Source: a virus
Virus record (IMG/VR): IMGVR_UViG_3300044858_000906
Span: 1 to 24,500 of that record
Direction: 5' to 3' (one strand)
DNA length: 24,500 nucleotides
The notes beneath the pieces were generated by a model, which worked only from the letters and a program-made list of their open reading frames with translations, searched no databases and was not told the DNA's origin. Below are positions 5,043-8,630 of the stretch, one piece after another. Numbering within the stretch: the first letter of the stretch is position 1; every line of letters starts with the position of its first letter. A program made the position numbers and the translations under genes.

Positions 5043-5552
5043 ATGGCACGACCTTTTGGAACTAAAGCAATAGAAACACCTGAAAAAATGTGGTGTAACA
5101 TAAACAATTGTGAAGGATACATGATTTCAAATTATGGAGATGTAATTTCATTTAGAAAAAGAAACAGTAAAGTGTTTTATGATGTTCCGAAAGTTATAAA
5201 ACAAAATACAATAACTACTCATTGTGCAAAAAAGTATAATAGAGTAAATTTGCTAGGAAAAGCTTTTTTTGTTCATAGATTAGTAGCAGAACATTTTATT
5301 GAGAATAAAACAAATAAACCTCAAGTAAACCATATTGATGGTGATTCATTAAATAATATTGTGATTAATTTAGAGTGGGTTACTAATTCAGAAAATCAAA
5401 TACATAGATTTAAAATGAATGGCACAAAAAACAATTATGGTCAATATGTACATAAAAGTAAAAACAATTTTAGAGTTTATAAAAAAGGAGTAGTCGATAA
5501 ATCATTTAGAGAATTAGAAGTTGCTCAAACATTTGCTAAACAATACTACTAA
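5043..5552 (+). CDS. NUMOD4-HNH homing endonuclease
   Basis: A 169-residue protein. Residues about 14-40 match the NUMOD4 DNA-binding motif (EKMWCNIN, then EGYMISNYGDVISF). Residues about 78-115 are an HNH_3-type nuclease: VHRLVAEHFI, then VNHIDGDSLNN with H97, D99 and N-N following, and INLEWVTNSENQ. The C-terminal 45 residues (YVHKSKNNFRVYKKGV) look like a small AP2-like or NUMOD DNA-binding unit. Such enzymes cut allelic sites lacking the gene and spread by repair. It sits between the lipoprotein and the small terminase, ending 2 bases before the latter. Its first residues, MARPFGTKAIETPEKMW, look like a small-terminase N-terminus rather than a normal endonuclease start. Confidence 0.85.
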   Translation: MARPFGTKAIETPEKMWCNINNCEGYMISNYGDVISFRKRNSKVFYDVPKVIKQNTITTHCAKKYNRVNLLGKAFFVHRLVAEHFIENKTNKPQVNHIDGDSLNNIVINLEWVTNSENQIHRFKMNGTKNNYGQYVHKSKNNFRVYKKGVVDKSFRELEVAQTFAKQYY

Positions 5553-6009: not shown

Positions 6010-7995
6010 ATGTTTAAACGAACAACCGCTATAAATAAATTATTGAAACTTGAAAAACGCAAAAAAGTAATTCAAGGCGGTACGAGTGCAGGTAAAACAT
6101 TTGGAATACTGCCAGTCTTAATTGATAGAGCAGCTAAAACACCACATTTAGAAATAAGTGTAGTAAGTGAAACAATACCACATTTGCGAAGAGGCGCAAT
6201 TAAAGACTTTTTAAAAATAATGGAATGGACGAACCGTTATGTAGATGCAAATTGGAACCGTTCACTATTAACATATAAATTTGCCAACGGTTCATATATT
6301 GAGTTCTTTAGTGCAGAACAAGAATCAAAGTTGCGAGGTGCAAGGCGTAATGTGCTTTACATTAACGAAGCAAACAATATTTCATTTGAAGCTTATCACC
6401 AATTAGCAATTAGAACAAGTGGCGAAATATGGTTGGACTTCAACCCTACTGCTGAATTTTGGGCGCATACCGAAGTTTTAAAAGACAATGACAGCGAACA
6501 TATAATACTTACCTACAAAGATAACGAGGCACTCCCTGAAACAATCATTCACGATATAGAACAAGCGCAACACAAAGCGCAAACATCAAGCTATTGGGCT
6601 AACTGGTGGAAGGTTTACGGACTTGGATTGATTGGTTCATTACAAGGTGTTGTATTCGATAATTGGAAACAGATTGAAAAGATACCAACAGATGCAAAAC
6701 TTTTAGGCTATGGAATGGATTTTGGTTTTACGAATGACCCAACCACATTAATCGCAGTTTACAAAACAAACAATCAACTTTACTTTGACGAGGTATTATA
6801 TCGTACTAACATGACAAATAATGAAATCGGTAACTTTATGAAGTCAGAAGGAATAGGTAGACCCTACGAAATAGTTGCGGATAGTGCAGAACCTAAATCA
6901 ATCGAAGAGTTAAGAAGGCAAGGATTTATGATTACACCTGCAACAAAAGGACCCGATTCAATTAAAATTGGTATTGATATTTTAAAACGTGAAAACTTCT
7001 TTGTTACTCAAAGTTCAATCAATTTAATTAAAGAGTTAAGGAGTTACGTTTGGGATACTGATAGAGATGGTAAGCTAACAGGAAAGCCAGTCGATTATTC
7101 AAATCATTGCTTTATAGGTGAAACTTTAATTACAACAAACAAAGGGCTAAAAAGAATTGATGAAATAAAAATAGGAGATAACGTTTTAACATCAAAAGGA
7201 TACAAAAAAGTTCAAAAAGTATTTAATAACGGTTTGCATCATGTGAATAAGTACTCGATACAATTAGATACTAATACTGTATATTTGACTGGTACAAATA
7301 ACCATAAAATAAAAACAACTAAATCATGGACAGAATTATCGAAATTGAAAAAGGGACAGCAAATTTTCCAACACAAACCTTTAAAGGGAAGCAATATAGC
7401 TTGTACAATGGAGAAAAGTATTTTAGTAGAGGAAATAAAAGACTTCATACAGAAGTTTGGAAATTTCATAAAGGAGAAATACCTAAAGACTATCATGTAC
7501 ATCATGTTGATGGGAATCAAAATAATAACGAAATATCAAATCTTAACCTTGTACATAAAACATTACATCAAAGATTCGAAGCGAAAAAAAGATTTAAAAA
7601 CAATCCAGAGTTTGCTAAAAGTTTTCATGCAAAAGGAATTGAGGCTGCAAAAGAATGGCACAAATCAAAACAAGGAATTGAATGGCATAAAAAGAATGGT
7701 AAAGAGTGTTGGATTAATAAACCTTTTACAGATAAAATATGCGAACAATGCGGAAAAGATTATAAAACAAGACACTCGGGCATATCTAAATACTGCCATC
7801 AAAACTGTAAAGCTACTGCACTTCGAGCAAGGAGAAAGTTACAAGGCTCAAGTATATGATTTAATGATAGAGGATTGCCACGAATATTTTGCAAATGGAA
7901 TCCTTGTTCATAATTGTGTTGATGCTATGAGGTATTTCGCACTTAATAAATTAAATAACCGACCAAGTGGCAAATACGCAACAATGAAAATTTAG
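6010..7995 (+). CDS. terL: Terminase large subunit precursor with intein
   Basis: The DNA-packaging motor and nuclease, encoded as a 661-residue precursor that should splice to 392 residues. The ATPase domain has Walker A QGGTSAGKT (22-30), Walker B VLYINE ending at E120, and motif C IWLDFNPT (140-147). The RuvC-like nuclease has GMDFGF with D237, VADS with D291 and, after the intein, CVDAMRY whose D638 is the third acidic residue. The intein occupies residues 367-635, between YSNH and CVDAMRY. Without splicing, the third acidic residue would be separated from its fold, so nuclease activity should depend on splicing. ATG 6010 is the first usual start, but the frame is open and protein-like back to 5953 without ATG, GTG or TTG. 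Confidence 0.93.
   Translation: MFKRTTAINKLLKLEKRKKVIQGGTSAGKTFGILPVLIDRAAKTPHLEISVVSETIPHLRRGAIKDFLKIMEWTNRYVDANWNRSLLTYKFANGSYIEFFSAEQESKLRGARRNVLYINEANNISFEAYHQLAIRTSGEIWLDFNPTAEFWAHTEVLKDNDSEHIILTYKDNEALPETIIHDIEQAQHKAQTSSYWANWWKVYGLGLIGSLQGVVFDNWKQIEKIPTDAKLLGYGMDFGFTNDPTTLIAVYKTNNQLYFDEVLYRTNMTNNEIGNFMKSEGIGRPYEIVADSAEPKSIEELRRQGFMITPATKGPDSIKIGIDILKRENFFVTQSSINLIKELRSYVWDTDRDGKLTGKPVDYSNHCFIGETLITTNKGLKRIDEIKIGDNVLTSKGYKKVQKVFNNGLHHVNKYSIQLDTNTVYLTGTNNHKIKTTKSWTELSKLKKGQQIFQHKPLKGSNIACTMEKSILVEEIKDFIQKFGNFIKEKYLKTIMYIMLMGIKIITKYQILTLYIKHYIKDSKRKKDLKTIQSLLKVFMQKELRLQKNGTNQNKELNGIKRMVKSVGLINLLQIKYANNAEKIIKQDTRAYLNTAIKTVKLLHFEQGESYKAQVYDLMIEDCHEYFANGILVHNCVDAMRYFALNKLNNRPSGKYATMKI
7108..7914 (+). 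other. Intein within TerL (269 residues), TerL frame
   Basis: A protein-splicing element. Block A begins with Cys1 (CFIGETLITTNKG). Then come GDNVLTSKGYKKVQKVFNNG and block B TGTNNHKIKT with the Thr and His of TxxH. The end carries block F VYDLMIEDCHEYFANG and block G ILVHN, giving the penultimate His and terminal Asn, and the +1 extein residue is Cys. All chemistry residues are present, so splicing should work. No LAGLIDADG endonuclease is seen in this frame. The stretch between blocks B and F is Lys/Ile-rich without a recognisable fold, because the same DNA encodes an HNH nuclease in another frame. Confidence 0.9.
7326..7859 (+). CDS. HNH endonuclease nested out of frame in the intein
   Basis: A 177-residue homing-type endonuclease read in the frame one base back (-1/+2) from TerL and lying wholly inside the intein. 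Residues about 26-85 are an HNH_3-type domain: a GEKYFSRGNKRLHTEVWKFH lead-in, then DYHVHHVDGNQNNN with H59, H60, D62 and N64, then ISNLNLV. A helical linker with two EWHK motifs follows. A C-terminal zinc finger has C139, C142, C157 and C161. The ORF is complete, starting at ATG 7326 just past block B and stopping at TGA 7857-7859 within the first codons of block F. No strong ribosome site is visible. It would presumably cut inteinless terL alleles. Confidence 0.88.
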   Translation: MDRIIEIEKGTANFPTQTFKGKQYSLYNGEKYFSRGNKRLHTEVWKFHKGEIPKDYHVHHVDGNQNNNEISNLNLVHKTLHQRFEAKKRFKNNPEFAKSFHAKGIEAAKEWHKSKQGIEWHKKNGKECWINKPFTDKICEQCGKDYKTRHSGISKYCHQNCKATALRARRKLQGSSI

Positions 7996-8014
7996 CAAAA
8001 AAGTACAAAATTTA

Positions 8015-8022
8015 TATATTAA
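8015..8022 (+). promoter_or_regulatory. Possible weak promoter before the tail chaperone
   Basis: TATATTAA at 8015-8022 lies in the 32-base gap between TerL and the chaperone gene, 5 bases before its ATG. It resembles the TATATTTG/TATATTTA boxes found before other operon heads in this window but matches the consensus poorly at its last bases. Position is the main reason for listing it. Confidence 0.25.
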
Positions 8023-8027
8023 ATAGA

Positions 8028-8630
8028 ATGAAGTTTGAAAAAATAACCATTAGTCAGTTTATAAAATGCAAAACAATTGCAGAACTTGAAACCGATCCAT
8101 TAAATCGTAACATTAAATTGCTAGCTGAATTAACAAACAAAACTTTTGATGAAATAGAGTCGATGCCAATTGAAGACTTAACAAAATCATTAAAAGCATT
8201 TAGTGAAATAGAGAACTTAAATCCAAACGCAAGAGTGAAAATGGATTTTAAAGTAAAGGGCAGAAGGTTTAAATGTATTTGGCAAACACAAAAGTTAAAG
8301 GCAGCACAATACATTGATGCAACTTCATTCTGCAAAGATGAGGCGAATATTATAAACAACATTCACAATATACTTGCAGCGATATGTGTTGAAAAGACTT
8401 GGTATGGCAAAGTAAAAAAATACGATGGTGCAAATCATAAAGAGGTTGCAGACTTGTTTTTAAACCACATGAAAATTGAGCAGGCATATCCTATCATGCT
8501 TTTTTTTTGCAGGTACTACAAGGAATTAGCAGACAATATCCTAATTTATTTGGAATCGGAATCGGTGAAAGCAATGGAGAGAGTGAAGCCAATATTGGAC
8601 AAACATTTGAAACAAAATGGGGTTGGATAG
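8028..8630 (+). CDS. Tail assembly chaperone, zero-frame product
   Basis: A 200-residue protein. The N-terminal part (TIAELETDPLNRNIKLLAEL, then TNKTFDEIESMPIEDL) followed by a beta-rich VKMDFKVKGRRFKCIW and a helical LKAAQYIDATSF unit is what I associate with tail assembly chaperones of Bacteroidota siphoviruses. These proteins coat the tape measure during tail assembly and, like lambda gpG, are made together with a longer frameshifted form. The codon series CTT TTT TTT TGC at 8499-8510 contains the slip site. In the zero frame, translation continues 40 residues past it to a stop at 8630. The tape measure gene is unusually far downstream (13523). Confidence 0.65.
   Translation: MKFEKITISQFIKCKTIAELETDPLNRNIKLLAELTNKTFDEIESMPIEDLTKSLKAFSEIENLNPNARVKMDFKVKGRRFKCIWQTQKLKAAQYIDATSFCKDEANIINNIHNILAAICVEKTWYGKVKKYDGANHKEVADLFLNHMKIEQAYPIMLFFCRYYKELADNILIYLESESVKAMERVKPILDKHLKQNGVG
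8500..8508 (+). promoter_or_regulatory. Slippery T9 run for -1 programmed frameshifting
   Basis: Nine consecutive T bases give the perfect heptamer T-TTT-TTT at 8501-8507 in the zero frame of the chaperone gene. A -1 slip re-pairs both tRNAs exactly and continues with TTG CAG GTA into the 8507-8782 frame. The -1 frame has a stop at 8477-8479 and no ATG before the slip, so the downstream ORF is most simply reached by slippage. I could not identify a convincing stimulatory pseudoknot by eye. Confidence 0.7.

Follow-up and report, generated by a model that had tools for sequence, protein, structure and literature searches.

A terL intein and an HNH gene in a second reading frame

The window, by which we mean the whole 24,500-nt stretch of viral DNA that was analysed, carries terL as a single unbroken ORF (6010-7995) rather than as the two ORFs of a split gene. 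Inside this ORF lies an intein that stays in the TerL frame throughout, and between the intein's blocks B and F the same DNA encodes an HNH endonuclease in the -1/+2 frame. The features of the locus, with the evidence for each in brackets, are as follows.

6010-7107, + strand: TerL N-extein, with the ATPase and most of the nuclease domain (ORF; Pfam Terminase_3 and Terminase_3C; relatives with an empty site)
7108-7914, + strand: intein of 269 aa, Cys1 to Asn269, in the TerL frame (splicing blocks; empty-site TerLs; profile)
7294-7305, + strand: block B, TxxH, here TNNH (sequence; T and H invariant across 23 homologues)
7326-7859, + strand: HNH endonuclease gene, 177 aa plus stop, -1/+2 frame (ORF; Pfam; PHROG; AlphaFold2 mean pLDDT 83)
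7326-7328, + strand: proposed internal start codon of the HNH gene (conserved ATG at a fixed intein position)
7381-7791, + strand: TerL-frame linker between the intein halves, a stop-free shadow of the HNH gene (pLDDT; no domain; substitution pattern)
7440-7571, + strand: HNH_3 core, in the HNH frame (Pfam; invariant H41, H60, N68, N72 and H81)
7740-7808, + strand: CxxC...CxxxC zinc-finger-like motif at the HNH C-terminus (invariant C139, C142, C157 and C161)
7852-7914, + strand: blocks F and G, VYDLMIEDCHEYFANGILVHN (sequence; conserved block VYDLMVED-HEYFANGILVHN in the alignment of 23 homologues)
7915-7992, + strand: TerL C-extein, CVDAMRYFALNKLNNRPSGKYATMKI, which completes the nuclease motif DAxRY (empty-site comparison)

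The splicing blocks A, B, F and G, which the original prediction described as intact in the TerL frame, were all confirmed at their coordinates. Cys1, encoded from position 7108 and invariant in the 23 homologues, corresponds to the nucleophile of a class 1 intein, and block G has the ending of this class, a His-Asn pair whose terminal Asn ends at 7914 and is followed by a +1 Cys at 7915. A profile search matched the element to the gp41-1 intein (9.8e-17). In the AlphaFold2 model the splicing halves were confident (pLDDT 84-91) and the linker was poor (33-64 over most of 7381-7791), and a Foldseek search with the intein returned the gp41-1 (TMt 0.83), Mtu RecA and Ssp DnaB inteins, as expected for a HINT fold. 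These features point to a class-1-type intein with intact HINT halves that would be able to splice.

An exact empty site was found in L230-L235, whose TerLs are 87-92% identical to that of the window and read SNH-(A/S)IDAMRYFALNKLNNRPSGKYAT without a break at the position where the window has SNH-269 aa-CVDAMRYFALNKLNNRPSGKYAT. The +1 residue is Cys in the window and Ala or Ser in these empty-site TerLs. No intein was present at this site in any of the 79 nearest inteinless TerL loci, and the distribution of the terL intein is sporadic. A group I or group II intron carrying the HNH ORF was also considered and was ruled out, as Rfam gave no match at the locus (6900-8100, E up to 1).

The second gene is likewise complete, as had been predicted, with an HNH domain and a zinc finger in the -1/+2 frame. 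The ORF matched Pfam HNH_3 (1.5e-10) and PHROG 15471, an HNH family (7e-25); its only sequence match in the PDB was the homing enzyme 1u3e (I-HmuI), which was weak (E 0.0043), and a Foldseek search of the HNH model against the PDB gave nothing significant (best E 0.9). The gene sits out of frame between blocks B and F and is not the canonical in-frame fusion, and its cassette fits the gap between the two blocks, from an ATG at 7326, downstream of block B, to a TGA across the first codons of block F. Both ends are shared with intein codons: the TG of the start codon and the G that follows form a conserved intein Trp codon, and the TGA spans the TAT-GAT (Tyr-Asp) codons at the opening of block F. 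In the TerL frame, the linker gave only insignificant matches in Pfam and PHROG when it was considered as a conserved domain. It is a stop-free shadow of the HNH gene, modelled with low confidence and not conserved as protein. The window also holds a second, freestanding endonuclease gene of the HNH_3 plus NUMOD4 type (5043-5552), directly upstream of a terS-like gene.

Overlap elements in other phages and stop avoidance in the intein frame

With the HNH and the intein as queries, searches yielded 228 loci, to which architectures were then assigned by profile classification. Contiguous inteins overlapped by an HNH gene made up 94 distinct elements, 77 with the register of the window and 17 with the opposite register, and no contiguous intein with its HNH in frame was found among the 228 loci. 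The remainder included 15 loci in which intein and HNH are non-contiguous, as well as freestanding HNHs. Most of the non-contiguous loci, among those listed, are split inteins in the order TerL-IntN, HNH, IntC-TerL, and split relatives of the window's HNH/TerL pair were found in Lactobacillus phage CL2 (L083) and in L094, L103-L105, L124, L192 and L197. In the CL2 locus (L083:455-2771), TerL-IntN runs to 1954, the HNH gene occupies 1967-2590 and an unannotated IntC-TerL precedes the portal gene.

Many of the relatives are metagenome contigs, and the overlap is also present in the named genomes of Tetrasphaera phage TJE1, Acinetobacter phage Highwayman and Rhodobacteraceae phage LS06-2018-MD07, in all three of which the overlapping HNH lacks annotation. 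TerLs of several Pfam types serve as hosts: of the 52 scanned, 33 matched Terminase_3 and 34 Terminase_6N, the two sets overlapping. In L106, the host gene matched PhoH-like profiles and not terminase profiles, so that its identity as TerL is unconfirmed. In the HNH tree the architectures are intermixed, and the well-supported branches require at least two changes for the window register. The suspicion that the terminase linker belonged to a wider, poorly described class proved correct. To this class the opposite register must be added, split forms occur as well, and it extends beyond Lys/Ile-rich, AT-rich phages, since GC-rich hosts carry the overlap too.

Several individual loci had further features. 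In L183 and L106, the ORF that carries the HNH overlap intein also encodes, further upstream in the N-extein, a second intein or a LAGLIDADG-type endonuclease. In an uncultured Clostridium contig (L140:1331-4732), a single TerL ORF holds two overlap inteins. One lies at the Walker-B region and the other at the nuclease motif; each has an HNH of its own, both HNHs are in the same register, and AAGGAG stands upstream of each. L026 and L036 have near-identical inteins and HNH C-terminal halves and differ in the HNH N-terminal half and linker, a pattern that suggests recombination inside the overlap. Outside terminases, the helicase genes of Escherichia phage ES (L312) and Pectobacterium phage Amona (L313) resemble split inteins, with an endonuclease ORF in another frame, annotated as LAGLIDADG in Amona, that overlaps both intein halves. 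The RNR intein of Thermus phage phiLo, a weak full-length match, was without an HNH of the window family.

For both registers, stops in the intein frame were absent. With the HNH protein held fixed and synonymous codons resampled from each element's own locus, 363 intein-frame stops were expected for the 77 elements with the window register and 261 for the 17 with the opposite register, versus none seen in either set. The unused third frame contains 1650 stops in the former and 139 in the latter. Among freestanding HNH relatives, the counts were near expectation (109 seen versus 95 expected in one frame, 299 versus 329 in the other), indicating that the resampling model fits them. An open frame was itself the criterion by which elements were called contiguous, which is a bias; it cannot produce the zero-stop effect, however, since apart from these elements the intein-embedded cases found comprised only the 15 non-contiguous loci. 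The two frames are thus held open together, as originally proposed, and across the 94 distinct elements there was no homologue with a broken TerL frame in the HNH region. For the window alone, the estimate that so long an open linker would arise about once in a million was too strong: 5.8 TerL-frame stops are expected and the probability of having none is 1.3e-4 (HNH fixed, own codon usage).

The way in which stops are avoided can be read from the codons of the HNH gene. NTA codons before a purine were missing (0/1075, versus 24% expected), and before a pyrimidine they were found at 32%, versus 31% expected. This is because NTA followed by a purine would create TAA or TAG in the intein frame, while no stop can arise before a pyrimidine. 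None of the 110 Met residues in overlap HNHs precedes a codon starting with A, compared with 20 of 61 in freestanding HNHs; the HNH protein sequence itself has therefore yielded to stop avoidance. We also noted that, away from stop-forming contexts, the wobble bases of overlap HNH genes with the window register are A-richer and G-poorer than locus usage predicts (wobble A before purines, 0.444 versus 0.323 predicted).

Collectively, we think it likely that the window represents a general class: phage terL inteins whose splicing and homing functions come from truly overlapping genes and whose HNH is never fused in frame, with the shadow frame kept stop-free in two registers and one HNH lineage moving between overlapping, split-intein and freestanding states. 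Such an overlap would be permitted by intein linkers that tolerate almost any sequence.

Constraint on the HNH gene and its probable expression and mobility

We have high confidence in the view that the element is a mobile terL intein whose endonuclease is encoded separately, by a gene that uses another frame of the same DNA, with TerL splicing itself and the free HNH driving homing. The ribosome would read TerL straight through, intein included, and the intein, with a poorly structured linker of ~135 residues, would excise itself and join 'SNH' to 'CVDAMRY'. A free HNH of 177 aa would be produced by internal initiation at the ATG at 7326 and would cut inteinless terL at the insertion site, repair then copying the whole 807-bp element. 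Selection would maintain the function of the HNH protein and, because TerL is essential, a stop-free TerL frame.

As expected for a homing endonuclease, the HNH is linked to a mobile element of sporadic distribution. Among pairs with at least 60% HNH identity, TerL identity was below 35% in 92 of 172, a descriptive count as the pairs share members. The same genes could in principle be tied to terL by function and not by homing, if the HNH acted with the terminase in packaging, as a partner of the HK97 gp74 type. Freestanding HNHs of the window family do adjoin terL in five named phages (Pseudomonas PAE1 and FBPa53, Brevundimonas Poludnitsa, Sphaerotilus SN1 and Exiguobacterium EauM-23), and HNH proteins adjoining terminases can act in packaging (PMC10448857). 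The nearest inteinless phages (63-92% TerL identity), however, are without this HNH within 3 kb of terL, so that it is not a fixed companion of the terminase in this lineage; a remote HNH was found in only 2 of the 79 nearest inteinless loci. Moreover, intein and HNH together are common to TerLs less than 35% identical, and T4 Mob-type homing enzymes likewise combine an HNH_3 domain with a C-terminal zinc finger (PMC10448857). A packaging role is therefore improbable. That freestanding HNHs often flank terL suggests that the target of an ancestral HNH lay in the terL region, either before the HNH became associated with the intein or afterwards.

The start of the HNH gene bears on how the endonuclease would be made. 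Programmed frameshifting from the intein frame, giving a fusion of intein-N and HNH, is brought to mind by A-rich runs near the junction and by an HNH frame that is open 10-30 codons upstream in some elements. In most elements, however, this frame opens merely 0-6 codons ahead of the conserved ATG (in about 70%, no more than 6 codons separate the upstream stop from the first ATG), which leaves little space for frameshift entry, and one kind of slip cannot serve both of the registers that exist. In the window register, the codon preceding the intein Trp has A as its last base, creating ATGG, in 60 of 67 inteins (25.3 expected), as against 2 of 8 (1.8 expected) in the opposite register, and the first HNH ATG is at the exact intein position of the window in 46 of the 77 elements. 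Of the 77 elements, 12 have a Shine-Dalgarno-like site ahead of the HNH start, compared with 3.9% of control starts; examples are GGAGG in L084 and AAGGAG ahead of both HNHs of L140. The split relatives carry the HNH as an independent ORF, and such a site is present before the HNH in 10 of the 15 non-contiguous loci. No Shine-Dalgarno site was found before the HNH start of the window. The best named matches of the window TerL are Flavobacterium phages, and with a Bacteroidota host a Shine-Dalgarno site is not expected. The conserved ATG, the short open stretch upstream and the Shine-Dalgarno-like sites favour internal initiation, and we give frameshifting slightly less weight still than a role in packaging.

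HEG degeneration is a frequent end of homing cycles, and the HNH could accordingly be a dying relic, with only the open intein frame under selection. This is very unlikely, given that the catalytic-type H and N residues and all four zinc-ligand Cys are invariant in 23 homologues and that the start ATG is conserved. In the HNH frame, substitution rates at codon positions 1, 2 and 3 were 0.24, 0.21 and 0.43 (122 pairs); those of freestanding HNHs were 0.19, 0.16 and 0.50 (from 9 pairs only). The wobble position evolves fastest, the signature of a protein under purifying selection, whereas in the linker it is the second codon position of its own frame that varies most, indicating that the TerL frame is kept open and little more. 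Finally, two compensating indels or assembly errors that mask an ordinary in-frame HNH intein, a general risk in metagenome contigs with nothing further to commend it here, have a negligible chance of being correct and were ruled out, as the element recurs at 100% identity in five IMG/VR contigs whose sample identifiers differ (L001-L005) and independent homologues, named phage genomes included, share the window register in 77 distinct elements with zero contiguous in-frame cases. Judged from these comparisons, the intein/HNH overlap is widespread and selectively maintained, and neither chance nor assembly error accounts for it.

Relation to known inteins and homing endonucleases

Mobile inteins are textbook fusions of splicing and homing domains. 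In the 94 distinct elements, splicing and homing would share DNA and not a polypeptide, and annotation that allows one gene per stretch misses the endonuclease. The elements also form a large, clean set of overlapping genes with controls from one protein family (freestanding, split and in two registers), so that how overlapping genes arise and are maintained can be tested directly, and they make long-linker inteins and free HNH nucleases available for protein-engineering tests.

Like canonical endonuclease inteins (LAGLIDADG or in-frame HNH), the window intein has its endonuclease between blocks B and F; theirs, however, is fused in frame, an arrangement with zero contiguous cases in this set. 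The HNH shares an HNH_3 core and a C-terminal zinc finger with I-HmuI and other HNH_3 phage homing endonucleases, including T4 Mob-like enzymes, but lies outside any known RNA intron (no Rfam match) and overlaps a protein-splicing element. In the literature, we found no description of a contiguous intein overlapped by its HNH, with two works standing outside the comparison: a preprint on actinobacteriophage inteins of 'non-canonical architecture' (Gosselin et al., bioRxiv 10.1101/2025.01.02.630785) and Gorbalenya 1998 (PMC147447), both of which PMC11855218 cites for overlapping frames. Similar inteins may be described in the preprint, known here through the citing paper, and given these two works, priority for the contiguous overlap is uncertain.

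Closer parallels come from two systems. In the fractured genes of Dassa et al. 2009, as cited in PMC10448857, split inteins have an intervening homing endonuclease gene. The likeness to the window is that intein halves flank an endonuclease, that gp41-1 is the closest solved intein and that some window relatives are split, whereas the window TerL is one unbroken ORF with the HNH nested inside. The endonuclease of the fractured genes is reportedly translated independently of the intein halves that flank it. The other parallel is the ShiLan methylase, in which an out-of-frame HNH lies in a stop-free insertion that lacks a splicing domain and is not known to splice (PMC11855218). Here too an in-frame, stop-free insertion encodes an HNH in another frame, with the same relative register and a disjunct distribution. 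The ShiLan HNH was rejected as a close homologue, being only remotely similar (best domain 15.7 bits), and intein profiles gave no significant match around the ShiLan insertion; in the window, by contrast, the HNH lies within a complete HINT intein. The hidden HNH of the ShiLan type and the arrangement of split inteins are combined where an HNH gene overlaps an intein that is both complete and contiguous.
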